From a virus: a stretch of DNA of 39,691 nucleotides. Shown piece by piece: positions 8,693-37,800 of this stretch. The notes beneath the pieces were generated by a model. That model had not been told where the DNA came from. It saw only the letters and a list, made by a program, of their open reading frames with translations, and did no database searches. The stretch spans positions 1-39,691 of IMG/VR virus record IMGVR_UViG_3300047321_000114, one strand, 5' to 3'. The stretch's first letter is position 1. Each line of letters starts with the position of its first letter. Both the position numbers and the translations under genes were made by a program.

Positions 8693-8787
8693 GCAAGGAA
8701 GGAACCAAGGAAGGTTGGAATCTTGGTTCTCGCCAAGTTTCCTTGATTGGTTTATTCTTTCCAAGATAACAAGGAAGGAAGGAACCA
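8693..8787 (+). promoter_or_regulatory. parS/operator-like repeat cluster and parA promoter
   Basis: This gap is full of CAAGGAA/GAACC repeats: AAGGAACCAAGGAAGG at 8699-8714, CTTGG-6-CCAAG at 8722-8737, TTTCCTTG at 8738-8745 and AAGGAAGGAAGGAACC before the parA start. A promoter TTGATT (8743-8748), 16 bases, GATAAC (8765-8770) lies inside the cluster. In type Ib partition systems the centromere and the operator lie just upstream of parA and bind the small partner protein, so this is the expected place. The 16-mer at 8699-8714 recurs inside the partner gene. Confidence 0.7.
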
Positions 8788-9432
8788 ATGAGAACGCTCG
8801 TGTTTTCCTGCCTGAAGGGCGGGAGCGGAAAGACGACGCATAGCGCGCACGTTGCTGTTGCGCTGGAACTGATGGGGAAGGGGCCAGTCGTTACGATGGA
8901 TCTCGACCCGCAAGGCTCGTTTTCCGCCTGGTGGAATGACCGGCAGGCCACGACGCCAGCGTTTGCCAAGGTGAAGGATGCGAAGCACCTGCCGGCAAAG
9001 CATGCCGAGCTGGCGACCGCGGGTTTCGAGTGGTGCATCATCGACACACCGCCGCAGGATCACGAGATAAACCGCACGGCGATCCGACTGGCCGATCTCG
9101 TCATTATTCCGGCCAAGCACTCGCCGCACGACATTCGGGCCGCAGAAAGCACGGTCGACTTGTGCGAGCAGGAGAACAAGAAGTTCTATTTTCTGCTCAA
9201 CGAGACGAACGGGAAGGCGGTCACGCTATCGGCCACGCGTAAGCTGGCGTCGATGGGGCCGGTTATCCCGCACGCCGTGCCGAAGCTGAACGGCTATTGG
9301 GAGTCGATGATCCCCGGCCTGACGTTTCAGGAAACGAGCCAAGGGACCGGCGCAATCATCATCGACAACGTGGTGAGCTTCCTTGTTGGGCTATTCGAAA
9401 AGCCAGCAATGAAGGAGAAGGCACATGTCTAA
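8788..9432 (+). CDS. parA: ParA-family partition ATPase (short, type Ib-like)
   Basis: A 214-residue ParA/MinD-type ATPase that would position phage-plasmid copies along the nucleoid. The deviant Walker A motif KGGSGKTT is at residues 10-17, Walker A' VTMDLDPQGS at about 35-44 and Walker B CIIDTPP at 83-89. There is no N-terminal helix-turn-helix, so it is of the short (type Ib, ParF-like) class that uses a separate small repressor/centromere-binding partner. That partner is encoded next with an eight-base overlap. Upstream repeats give the likely centromere. Such genes mark prophages that replicate as plasmids, such as P1-, N15- and KS14-like elements. Confidence 0.93.
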   Translation: MRTLVFSCLKGGSGKTTHSAHVAVALELMGKGPVVTMDLDPQGSFSAWWNDRQATTPAFAKVKDAKHLPAKHAELATAGFEWCIIDTPPQDHEINRTAIRLADLVIIPAKHSPHDIRAAESTVDLCEQENKKFYFLLNETNGKAVTLSATRKLASMGPVIPHAVPKLNGYWESMIPGLTFQETSQGTGAIIIDNVVSFLVGLFEKPAMKEKAHV

Positions 9433-9745
9433 GGCGACGCTCGATATGGTTGTGACGAAGAAGGGGGGCGCGGCGCCCGCAACCTTGGAAGCAAGCAAGG
9501 AAGAAACCAAGGAACCAAGGAAGGAAGCAACCAAGCAAGAACCTGAGAGAGAGGCGAGAAAACGCCCGTGGGACGGCCAAGACGATGTGATAAAGGCCAA
9601 TTATGAAGTGCCGCGCCGGATTCAGACGAAACTCCACACCCTCAAGACCTGGGGGAGGATCGAAAACCTAAAGGGGTTCGTGTCTGAGGCGCTAGAGAAG
9701 GCGCTGGATCGGGAGATCGCGGCAGCCGAGCGGGAAGGGTACTGA
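9425..9745 (+). CDS. ParG-like partition adaptor, ribbon-helix-helix
   Basis: A 106-residue protein. The first 45 residues are flexible and very charged (ASKEETKEPRKEATKQEPER). The last 55 (IKANYEVPRRIQTKLHTLKT, then KGFVSEALEKALDREI) fit a ribbon-helix-helix dimer: a short beta strand followed by two helices. A mobile charged tail plus RHH is the layout of ParG-type proteins that bind the centromere and stimulate ParA. The gene overlaps parA by eight bases and the next gene by TGATG. The DNA that encodes the tail repeats the centromere-like CCAAGGAA units. The assignment rests on context and fold, not on a close match. Confidence 0.72.
   Translation: MSKATLDMVVTKKGGAAPATLEASKEETKEPRKEATKQEPEREARKRPWDGQDDVIKANYEVPRRIQTKLHTLKTWGRIENLKGFVSEALEKALDREIAAAEREGY
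9493..9541. repeat. CAAGGAA/CCAAGGAA repeats inside the partition adaptor gene
   Basis: Within the coding sequence for the charged tail, CAAGGAA-type units occur three times in 30 bases. The 16-mer AAGGAACCAAGGAAGG at 9509-9524 is identical to 8699-8714 upstream of parA. The repeats continue as GAAGCAACCAAGC to about 9536. They could be a second binding site for the same protein. Confidence 0.7.
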
Positions 9746-10293
9746 TGAACGATCAGCCGGAGTTGTGGGAAGAATTGAAGGTCGAGAATCACTGGTTCCA
9801 CGTCGTGCGCGCGATGATCCAGCGCGACAAGATCGCCGAAATGGGTGTTCACGCGTGGGCGGTCTATTGCGTGCTCAAGAGCTACGCGGCGCTCGATACC
9901 GGGAAATCCTATCCGGGCCGTGATGCGATAGCCAGGCACGTAGGCGTGTCGCTGGATACCGTCGACCGGGCGCTATCGAAGCTGGACGAAATGGGGATAG
10001 TTGCGCGAAGGAAACTCGGGCGAAGCAATTCGTATGAACTGACGGAGCAAATACCGATGACCGCAGCAAATGGCGAGATCGCGATGCACGGTGAGGCGAA
10101 GTACGTCCCGATGCAGTTTCAACAGGTTTTAGACCAGCTGAAGGCGTTCGCGGCGAGCGGGAGTATGCAGGGAGGTCTAGAGGTCAAGATCGTCTTAAAC
10201 GCCAATTTCCTGACTGGCTCACATGCGACGGTAAACAACTACAATGCGCCGGCCGTTGTCGGAGTCGAAGTTACCCCCAAGAAGTCGGACTGA
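9745..10293 (+). CDS. winged-helix Rep-like protein (candidate replication initiator)
   Basis: A 182-residue protein whose first 95 residues match the HTH_36 type winged helix of plasmid and phage replication proteins: HVVRAMIQRDKIAEMGVHAW, YPGRDAIARHVGVSLDTVDR, ALSKLDEMGIVARRK. The rest is of lower complexity and includes MQGGLEVKIVLNANFLTG. It is co-transcribed with the two partition genes (TGATG overlap) and lies directly before a DnaA-box and repeat-rich noncoding segment. This is the usual place of an initiator gene. A transcription repressor of the same cassette is the alternative. Confidence 0.68.
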   Translation: MNDQPELWEELKVENHWFHVVRAMIQRDKIAEMGVHAWAVYCVLKSYAALDTGKSYPGRDAIARHVGVSLDTVDRALSKLDEMGIVARRKLGRSNSYELTEQIPMTAANGEIAMHGEAKYVPMQFQQVLDQLKAFAASGSMQGGLEVKIVLNANFLTGSHATVNNYNAPAVVGVEVTPKKSD

Positions 10294-10337: not shown

Positions 10338-10418
10338 GCCGCTGGCCAGCGGCGTATTCGCCTCGATAAGCCGCTCACCAGCGGCGTATCAGAAAACAAT
10401 AGGCCGCTCGCCAGCGGC
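10338..10418. repeat. three phased GCCGCTnnCCAGCGGC palindromes (iteron-like)
   Basis: Copies are at 10338-10353 (perfect 16-bp palindrome GCCGCTGGCCAGCGGC), 10370-10385 and 10403-10418. All keep the six-base arms GCCGCT/AGCGGC, and the first two are followed by GTAT. The 32/33-bp periodicity puts them on the same face of the helix, as expected for cooperative initiator or ParB-type binding. Confidence 0.85.
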
Positions 10419-10492
10419 TAATGAAATGTTGTCCACAGCCAGTTATCCACAGATTCTGTGCGTAACCCTGTGCGCAATTTCCGTTCGATAAA

Positions 10493-28194: not shown

Positions 28195-28914
28195 TCAGCC
28201 TTTGTTTCGTTTCTTCCACGCGATGTATTCCGCCGTCGAGGCGAACTCAGCCGGCTCGACAGGTGCGGATTTGCCGCCAACCGGGGTAATCGGCGCGGGC
28301 GCTTTGGAAACTTGTTTCGGGGGAGTGGCTTGAGCGACCTTCGCCTCAAGGCGGGCCAGTTCAAGCGCCATGCGCAACGGTGGGAGGGAAAGAACGCGCT
28401 CTGCGGCTTCGGGGTCTTGGCCCAAGGCATGCAGCACCTTGTGACCGTTATCCATCGACGTGACGGCTTCCAGGAACTCAGCGGGAGCGCCGCCTAGCAT
28501 CTGGAACGTTCGCAGCGACGAATCCCACTCAGCAGAGAATTCCTTCTTTCCCGCGTCGAATACGCTGTTGCAGGCTTCGTCGAACTTCTCTTGCTGGATC
28601 AGCCGCTTTGCCTCGGCGCGGATCTGGTCAGGCGTCATCTGCTGGCCGGGCTGGTGCTCGGTCTGCGGCTGAAGCTGTCGCAGTTGCGCTTCGAGTGCTT
28701 CGCGCTGTCGCTTTTCCTCGTGCTTCTCACGCGTGAGCTGGTCGATACGCCGTTGGACCCAATCACTCTTGGGTTTTTCCTGCTGCGGCTGCTCGGCTGC
28801 TTGCGTGCTTTGCTCGGCGCCCGGTTCCGTGCTGACTTCTGCGGGCTGTTGCGCCTGTTCCTGCTCCGTAGGCGTGACGTTTTCAAGCGGTGCTGCGTTG
28901 TCTTCGATTTGCAT
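28195..28914 (-). CDS. scaffolding-like protein
   Basis: A 239-residue, very hydrophilic protein, rich in glutamine, glutamate and alanine, with a long coiled coil (DWVQRRIDQLTREKHEEKRQ and on) and a proline- and lysine-rich C terminus ending AWKKRNKG. Position (between portal and coat) and composition match P22 gp8 scaffold, which guides procapsid assembly and is released before packaging. An in-frame start at 28995 is possible but would run through the terminator hairpin; ATG 28914 is preferred, although no good ribosome binding site is seen. Confidence 0.82.
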   Translation of the reverse strand: MQIEDNAAPLENVTPTEQEQAQQPAEVSTEPGAEQSTQAAEQPQQEKPKSDWVQRRIDQLTREKHEEKRQREALEAQLRQLQPQTEHQPGQQMTPDQIRAEAKRLIQQEKFDEACNSVFDAGKKEFSAEWDSSLRTFQMLGGAPAEFLEAVTSMDNGHKVLHALGQDPEAAERVLSLPPLRMALELARLEAKVAQATPPKQVSKAPAPITPVGGKSAPVEPAEFASTAEYIAWKKRNKG

Positions 28915-37035: not shown

Positions 37036-37800
37036 ATGGCAACCATGTTATTCGACGAGCCGCCGCTTGTCGTCTCCCCCACTTTAGCCTGCGCCATCGG
37101 CCTTCACGAAGCGATCGTCCTACAGCAGATGCACTACTGGCTGTCGCACAGCAAGTTCGTCCACGATGACCGTCATTGGGTATACAACACCTATGAGGAC
37201 TGGGCGAAGCAGTTCCCGTTCTGGAAGCCGGAAACCATCCGCAAGATCATCGCCAAGCTGCGCGGTGACGGGCTGATCGACATCGCCAAGCTGTCGGATA
37301 ACCCTTGGGACAAGACCAACTATTACGCGATCAACTATGCGGTTTTGGCTACGCATGGCGCCCGCATCGATGCGGAAAAATCCACCGCATCAGAGCGGAA
37401 ATCTGCACCGGTTCAGATGCGGAAAAATCCACCGCATCACTGTACAGAGAATACAGAGACTACTACAGAGAATACAGAGCGCGCTCCGCGCACCGACCTC
37501 TCCTTCGCGGAATGGATCGAAACCTGCAAAACCTCGGGCGAGCGTCCCGTCCCTGAAAGCGATCCTGTCTTTGAATATGCCGAGAAGGCAGGTCTTCCGC
37601 TCGACTACATCGTGCTGCACTGGAAAGAGTTCAAAGAGCGCTATGCCACTGACGGCAAGCGTTACAAGGACTGGCGCGCGGTCTATCGCAAGTCAGTTCG
37701 TGGCAACTGGTTCCGACTCTGGTTTTTCAATGCTGACGGCGTTTGCACGCTGACGACGCAGGGCCAACAAGCTAACCGCATTCACAAGGAGCAAGCATGA
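37036..37800 (+). CDS. O/DnaT-like replisome organizer
   Basis: A 254-residue replication protein. Residues 1-105 form a winged-helix domain with the signature IGLHEAIVLQQMHYWLSHSK, then WVYNTYEDWAKQFPFWKPET and LRGDGLIDIAKLSDN. A flexible linker (110-155) contains KSTASERKSAP and a TENTE repeat. The C terminus ends with KDWRAVYRKSVRGNWFRLWF, like the DnaT/phage primosome C-terminal domain that loads the helicase. It acts with the DnaB-type helicase encoded after it. The linker DNA carries iteron-like repeats (37369-37479), as the lambda O gene does. GAGGAAAG precedes the ATG. Confidence 0.88.
   Translation: MATMLFDEPPLVVSPTLACAIGLHEAIVLQQMHYWLSHSKFVHDDRHWVYNTYEDWAKQFPFWKPETIRKIIAKLRGDGLIDIAKLSDNPWDKTNYYAINYAVLATHGARIDAEKSTASERKSAPVQMRKNPPHHCTENTETTTENTERAPRTDLSFAEWIETCKTSGERPVPESDPVFEYAEKAGLPLDYIVLHWKEFKERYATDGKRYKDWRAVYRKSVRGNWFRLWFFNADGVCTLTTQGQQANRIHKEQA
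37369..37439. repeat. iteron-like 24-bp repeats inside the replisome organizer gene (candidate lytic origin)
   Basis: An exact 24-bp repeat occurs at 37369-37392 and 37416-37439; each copy starts GATGCGG and ends CCGCATCA, so it is itself an inverted repeat around an A-rich centre. The 23 bases between them (GAGCGGAAATC and on) are a degenerate third copy, so the three units lie in direct tandem. CCCGCATC at 37361-37368 joins the first as a further half-site. Confidence 0.85.
37443..37479. repeat. 16-bp direct repeat TACAGAGAATACAGAG, two copies
   Basis: Exact copies at 37443-37458 and 37464-37479, 21 bases apart, encode the TENTE repeats of the linker. They directly follow the iterons and may be part of the same origin. 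Confidence 0.85.

Follow-up and report, generated by a model that had tools for sequence, protein, structure and literature searches.

Can the centromere of a partition system be written into the codons of the gene whose product should read it? This question is raised by a 39,691-nucleotide stretch of viral DNA (the whole stretch analysed here, termed the window), in which repeats located upstream of a parA gene recur inside the small adaptor gene that follows parA. A preliminary description of this DNA had proposed that the tail of the adaptor is encoded by the adaptor's own binding site. Our analysis supports a tail encoded by a likely binding array, since relatives keep the DNA boxes while the encoded residues change; binding by the adaptor has not been shown.

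A par locus with type Ib layout

Type Ib adaptors are described as binding arrays upstream of parA, repressing the operon and driving ParA via a disordered tail (PMC7308502, PMC5016525). The par locus of the window comprises three genes arranged head to tail between positions 8788 and 10293, namely parA, an overlapping adaptor gene and a gene for a winged-helix protein:

8788 to 9432, plus strand: parA, 214 aa, with full-length profile matches to 5u1g_D (6e-17) and ParF 4dzz_A (3e-16)
9425 to 9745, plus strand: adaptor gene (ParG-like), 106 aa, overlapping the parA stop
9425 to 9490, plus strand: conserved adaptor head codons (LDxxVxxKGxAAPA), common to adaptors of ParF-type plasmid systems
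9563 to 9742, plus strand: adaptor C-terminal domain, which presumably binds DNA; a ribbon-helix-helix is suspected, not shown
9745 to 10293, plus strand: winged-helix gene, 182 aa, matching Pfam HTH_36 (8e-8) and PHROG replication-initiation families

ParA of the window possesses a deviant Walker A motif (KGGSGKT, residues 10–16), lacks an N-terminal DNA-binding domain, is close to TP228 ParF by profile and, with its 214 aa, matches the type Ib criterion of a small ParA of about 190–310 aa. The type Ib layout is likewise present, with a small adaptor gene directly 3′ of parA, a disordered tail and a repeat array 5′ of parA. Residues 1–42 of the adaptor have pLDDT values below 50 in AlphaFold models, and the N-terminal tail is predicted to be disordered. 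The winged-helix protein resembles phage replication initiators by its PHROG families, and its gene is probably the last one of the operon. A scan for consensus promoters gave no match near parA.

The designation of the adaptor as ParG-like, which was made before any search, is backed by its partner ParA and by the gene layout; a ribbon-helix-helix fold could not be confirmed. Profile searches of the adaptor against Pfam, NCBIfam, PHROG and PDB gave no identifying or usable match. Its head (residues 4–22) aligns with plasmid adaptors in hhalign over 19 columns (E 7e-5, probability 62.6), and one of these plasmid adaptors matches Pfam family RHH_10; in the region of the C-terminal domain, hhalign gave no profile match to plasmid adaptors. 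The AlphaFold models, which represent monomers only, are helical hairpins with a helix where the strand of a ribbon-helix-helix protein would be expected. Foldseek with the full adaptor model returned one match, which is meaningless, and the top fold match of the C-terminal domain, the ParD antitoxin 8c24, is weak (E 7.1, Z 4.6); ParD is a ribbon-helix-helix protein. Judged by eye, the adaptor shows a pattern KxNxE ahead of a proline, with alternate residues pointing outward. Plasmid and phage collections contained no match to the adaptor, nor did the plasmids match the operon DNA, and scanning genome contigs with ParA alignments confirmed no relative.

Both arrays consist of C-W-W-G boxes on a 4-bp lattice

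The preliminary description had noticed a 16-mer that is common to the region upstream of parA and the adaptor gene. We could confirm that AAGGAACCAAGGAAGG occurs exactly twice in the window:

8699 to 8714, plus strand: upstream copy of the 16-mer, exact match to AAGGAACCAAGGAAGG
9509 to 9524, plus strand: intragenic copy of the 16-mer, exact match to AAGGAACCAAGGAAGG, within the codons of the 106-aa adaptor

When up to three mismatches are allowed, the window contains six matches, all of them at these two arrays (0.09 expected), a number that was reached in none of 100 shuffles. The accompanying claim of several further units in each place was overstated, as CCAAGGAA has one exact copy upstream (at 8705) and two in the gene (9507 and 9515). 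The true repeat unit is shorter than the 16-mer, namely a 4-bp C-W-W-G box set on a 4-bp lattice. Since CAAG and CTTG are one box read on opposite strands, the box can be written C-W-W-G and has a two-fold axis. The boxes make up two arrays:

8694 to 8773, no strand assigned: upstream array of seven CAAG/CTTG boxes on one 4-bp lattice, covering the parA promoter region
9484 to 9539, no strand assigned: intragenic array of seven boxes (six CAAG, one CTTG) on one 4-bp lattice, from which most of the charged disordered tail is translated

The upstream boxes lie at 8694, 8706, 8722, 8734, 8742, 8762 and 8770 in a single phase, and GAAG/GAAC tetramers, which are related to the boxes, continue from there to the parA start codon. 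The intragenic boxes, again in a single phase, lie at 9484, 9492, 9496, 9508, 9516, 9532 and 9536, and the adaptor gene reads in fours as CTTG GAAG CAAG CAAG GAAG AAAC CAAG GAAC CAAG GAAG GAAG CAAC CAAG CAAG. The repeats had originally been assigned to 9493–9541; the real array is slightly longer, extending from 9484 to 9539.

The tail array is retained while the encoded residues change

Viral contigs were scanned with the adaptor or ParA (as protein or alignment) and then with wider alignments, which yielded 25 contigs with a complete adaptor tail. If the residues were kept and the repeats lost among these relatives, the idea of a tail encoded by its binding array would have failed. The opposite was seen, as 24 of the 25 keep the boxes (at least three in one mod-4 class) while the residues change and two to three codon frames are used. 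The retained arrays represent 16 distinct tail sequences, or 17 when the single box-free tail is counted, and together with the window this places the array in the presumed binder's own reading frame in all but one case. Whole adaptors are 42–98% identical to the window adaptor in an alignment of 14 sequences, with the tail as the poorly aligning part, and ParA identity to the window ParA falls to 54% among the array-keeping relatives. The tails of L012 and L014 clearly differ from the other tails.

At 13 ParF-type loci of plasmids and other phages, no array common to the upstream region and the adaptor was found; L119, which has no annotated adaptor, was left out of the count. Sharing there amounted to at most 7.3% of 7-mers in the first half of the adaptor (5.9% in parA of the same locus), compared to 15–41% in the window phage family. 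As the plasmid ParA relatives have array-free adaptors, the array is not required for type Ib systems in general.

To locate arrays across whole phages we used a lattice scan of 13 phage records (677,706 bases) instead of an earlier cluster scan with a six-base core, which had missed five of the 13. At a score of at least 5, the lattice scan gave 13 hits, eight in adaptor genes, five upstream of parA and none elsewhere; at a score of at least 4, ten adaptor genes, twelve upstream regions and three other places were hit. The stricter scan misses both arrays in the records of L043, L048 and L067 (G009, G011 and G013), each of which is recovered in one of its own arrays at the lower score. In 11 of 12 records the tail is also the best record-wide 7-mer match to the 150 bp upstream of parA, and in the remaining one (G012) it ranks fourth.

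The larger phages (about 75–78 kb) contain extra short box clusters at or before the starts of other genes, at 44406 and 41951–42047 in L076 (G002), 69854 and 74857 in L081 (G012), 66256 in L106 (G011) and 30427 in L097 (G008; all in record coordinates), as if the adaptor were perhaps a wider regulator there. Two further clusters, L077 (G002) at 64798 and L079 (G012) at 28463, apparently lie inside other reading frames as judged by eye, giving peptides such as TNQGTKEE. Three loci of larger phages, L011, L042 and L048, carry a perfect palindrome, ACCGTATACGGT, in the parA promoter region, which is perhaps the site of another repressor.

Repeats of this kind might result from neutral low-complexity drift, in which tetranucleotide slippage and exchange between arrays keep them in a tolerant linker and only the upstream array works. 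The residues of the disordered tail turn over, a 4-bp lattice would arise by itself from slippage of a 4-bp unit, and tracts of 9–16 nt are shared within loci. Exchange as part of the likeness is not formally excluded. However, this does not sit well with an array that persists across the relatives down to the ParA identity given above, that is absent where the cognate par is absent and that has no counterpart elsewhere in the scanned bases at a score of at least 5. Moreover, tetramers other than the boxes are not the same in both arrays of one locus, whereas exchange would have homogenised them. We consider drift unlikely, without discarding it. In G001 (L092:12240–12430), the upstream array is interrupted by an insertion of about 180 bases that contains a hairpin-like repeat, and the tail array is intact; this fits a second working array and is no proof of it.

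Box spelling changes in both arrays of a locus

One locus, L012, carries CTAG boxes in both arrays (three of four boxes in the tail, five of five upstream), and CTAG is found on the lattice at none of the 12 other loci. The ParA of L012 shares 92% identity with the ParA of L014, a locus with CAAG/CTTG arrays. In L012, L014 and L067, both arrays mostly have an A directly after the box; in the other loci, this base is mostly G in the tail and mixed upstream. Sharing of 7-mers between the two arrays is 0.265 within a locus versus 0.158 across loci (permutation p about 1.5e-4, uncorrected for phylogeny), and the within-locus value is the higher one in 47 of 55 pairs. Across five disjoint pairs, the difference in sharing amounts to 0.414, 0.234, 0.057, −0.002 and −0.049, such that covariation is clear in two, slight in one and absent in two. 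Position 59 of the adaptor is G only in L012 and N in the 13 others of 14 aligned full-length adaptors. That this position determines specificity rests on a single event and is only a prediction. Covariation is the only evidence that the encoded protein binds the tail array, and binding itself remains an inference.

The arrays might instead be genuine sites of another protein, i.e. the downstream winged-helix protein, ParA or a host factor. The winged-helix gene belongs to this operon, and its product resembles an initiator that binds DNA. In addition, the one exception among the 25 relatives, L129, has no box in its tail and a single box before its ParA, and hence no array, yet it retains the C-terminal domain of the adaptor (68% identical). 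The winged-helix gene is likewise retained in L129, as is the end of the upstream gene, so the loss of the array counts equally against the winged-helix protein as its reader. Within L129:836–2230, another ParA and a small new gene have replaced ParA and the upstream array, with the old adaptor remaining and its tail shortened; the absence of the array goes along with that of the cognate ParA. Type Ib adaptors usually read arrays upstream of parA (PMC5016525, PMC7308502), and the phage with CTAG boxes is the sole one whose adaptor has G for N at position 59, albeit in a single event. A different reader appears improbable to us.

A 4-bp lattice overlies the codon rhythm of the tail

Phases were counted over 12 non-redundant loci, 11 of them with upstream DNA. 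Of 63 boxes in the tails, 60 belong to the modal mod-4 class of the respective locus; upstream, the figure is 59 of 63. All 35 same-strand box spacings in 13 tails are multiples of 4 (8, 12, 16, 20, 32, 36, 44), and modulo 3 they spread as 11/6/18. Self-similarity of the tails is 0.41–0.47 at lags of 4 to 24 in steps of 4, compared to 0.16–0.19 at lags 2, 6, 10, 14, 18 and 22; the upstream regions follow the same lag pattern (0.33–0.39). The rest of the adaptor and parA shows the normal 3-base rhythm with autocorrelation peaks at multiples of 3. Codon choice differs likewise, with GAA:GAG at 63:16 in the tails versus 68:188 elsewhere in adaptor and parA, and CAA:CAG at 14:1 versus 18:103.

Selection at the protein level for a tail rich in K, E and P, combined with biased codons, might produce the likeness of the DNA as a by-product, and charged tails are plausible for such adaptors. 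When synonymous codons were permuted within each tail, much of the box count was preserved; box counts were unusual (p<0.05) in none of 12 loci and 7-mer sharing (p<0.05) in 7 of 11. Given the residues, part of the array follows, which is also expected if the DNA dictates the residues, and the permutation control alone cannot tell the two readings apart. The distinction comes from frame use, lattice and covariation. Boxes occur in all three codon frames (24/18/18 over 16 loci) and encode differing residues (TKE, PRK, NQG), to which the deviating tails of L012 and L014 may be added. Relative to codons drawn from the neighbouring coding sequence, 11 of 12 loci have an unusually high box count (p<0.05; p 0.12 for the remaining one, L049), and the sharing of 7-mers with the upstream region reaches p≤0.01 in 11 of 11. 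Back-translated controls are exceeded in box number (63 versus at most 35) and in lag-4 autocorrelation (0.418 versus at most 0.333). The fraction of boxes in the modal phase does not discriminate tails from these controls (0.89 against 0.95) because the controls hold few boxes. Protein-level selection as the sole cause is thus highly improbable.

A role of the repeats in the mRNA as ribosome-binding or pairing elements is scarcely tenable, since, although GGAAGGAA sits before the parA start codon, CCAAGG and CCUUGG can pair and a stem is detected upstream, the phage with CTAG boxes retains the lattice without purine-rich GGAAGG repeats, upstream boxes of both orientations share one lattice and an Rfam search of the window gave no match.

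Comparison with known systems

The ParF/ParG/parH system of plasmid TP228 resembles the locus studied here in its small ParA without a regulatory domain, its downstream small adaptor with a disordered N-terminal tail and its upstream array of degenerate tetramer boxes serving partition and repression, comparable to the array upstream of parA in the window (PMC7308502, PMC5016525). In contrast to TP228, the window has C-W-W-G boxes that follow a continuous 4-bp lattice, its adaptor gene contains a second array and the adaptor fold is unconfirmed. In phage lambda, the codons of the origin form a linker of the O protein. With its ori in gene O, lambda likewise carries the sites of a DNA-binding protein within the protein's own gene (PMC4488673). 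Unlike the window array, however, lambda ori is a replication origin of four 19-bp iterons and not a partition array. ParB of Bacillus subtilis is a CTPase, and its site parS-359 is a single palindrome. No lattice shaping a tail is present in parS-359, unlike in the window. The site is nevertheless similar in being a centromere site inside parB, the gene of its binding protein (PMC4442127).

Several dispersed sites per partition protein are described for pMF1 parCAB, N15 and pSM19035, of which pMF1 and pSM19035 are type Ib, and pMF1 sites also lie inside the ORFs pMF1.14 and pMF1.16; within the text available to us, such sites are not described inside the codons of the adaptor itself, which distinguishes them from the window (PMC3235114). 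In repABC replicons, parS lies inside or near the operon and also within coding sequences (PMC9040568). Unlike the boxes of the window, these parS sites are of the palindromic ParB/parS type. Hence, sites inside the binder's own gene and dispersed sites inside ORFs are already known. We found no report of a centromere array encoding the tail of a partition adaptor in the open-licence literature, with subscription papers outside the scope of this search.

Gene content and possible origins

The window combines phage structural genes (P22-like portal, coat and terminase) with ParA and a replication-initiator-like gene, and further encodes a RusA-like resolvase, an Erf-like annealing protein and a DnaB helicase. 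The window phage, which is P22-like, and its family probably live as plasmids. No match to a tyrosine or serine recombinase family was found in the window, which is possibly incomplete. Five of 14 records (G003, G004, G005, G009 and G010) contain a tyrosine recombinase, by coordinates about 1 kb from parA, which may be an integrase or a dimer resolvase. A repeat region follows the winged-helix gene:

10338 to 10452, no strand assigned: three GCCGCTnnCCAGCGGC palindromic repeats followed by two DnaA-box-like sequences, 3′ of the winged-helix gene

The last two sequences resemble the DnaA-box consensus, and the region is a possible plasmid origin. Within a DnaD/initiator-like gene (37036–37800), positions 37362–37479 contain palindromic units of 23/24 bp in tandem as well as a duplicated TACAGAGAATACAGAG. 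By analogy to lambda O, of which this arrangement is reminiscent, it might possibly be a second origin located inside an initiator gene.

Proposed function of the two arrays

Most likely, the ParG-like adaptor binds both arrays as centromere and operator, an inference from the DNA alone for which no binding data exist. We regard it as probable that the window encodes a type Ib (ParF/ParG-like) partition module in which the adaptor reads both C-W-W-G arrays and joins them into one complex that ParA moves. Both arrays, their lattice, its conservation, the rotation through codon frames and the matching box spelling are observed; the adaptor as the reader, a complex joining both arrays and a roadblock to transcription are inferred.

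The adaptor would recognise the two-fold symmetric C-W-W-G box and coat DNA that carries boxes on a 4-bp lattice, and the upstream array, located over the parA promoter, would act as centromere and operator. Since a disordered tail could take almost any sequence, we propose that the DNA lattice, rather than the protein, sets its residues. Through adaptor dimers bound to each of them, the two arrays would be united in a single partition complex that is moved by ParA, and the occupied inner array could slow transcription into the adaptor gene and the replication-initiator-like gene behind it. The inner array may thus enlarge the centromere, brake transcription, or both.

A more far-reaching possibility, which we put forward only tentatively, is a dual-coding centromere, in which the ParA-facing disordered tail would be a three-frame translation of the adaptor's own 4-bp binding lattice. 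Box spelling would then change together with the domain that reads the DNA, and the tail peptide would follow, such that specificity would evolve in the DNA and rewrite the protein; as the tail tolerates almost any residue, the spelling would be free to change. A gene occupied by its own product would provide a built-in elongation brake on the adaptor and the replication gene.

Binding sites within coding sequence are usually single and confined to what synonymous positions allow. In the present case, a 4-bp lattice in the DNA appears to override the 3-bp codon rhythm over about 60–100 bases throughout a whole phage family, and it does so in the gene whose product should read the lattice. The loci with CAAG, CTAG or a different flanking base offer a natural series for joint changes in specificity of a partition protein and its centromere. 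If true, the finding would show that disordered tails can be written by constraints on the DNA and would help to explain the fast divergence of partition adaptor tails.
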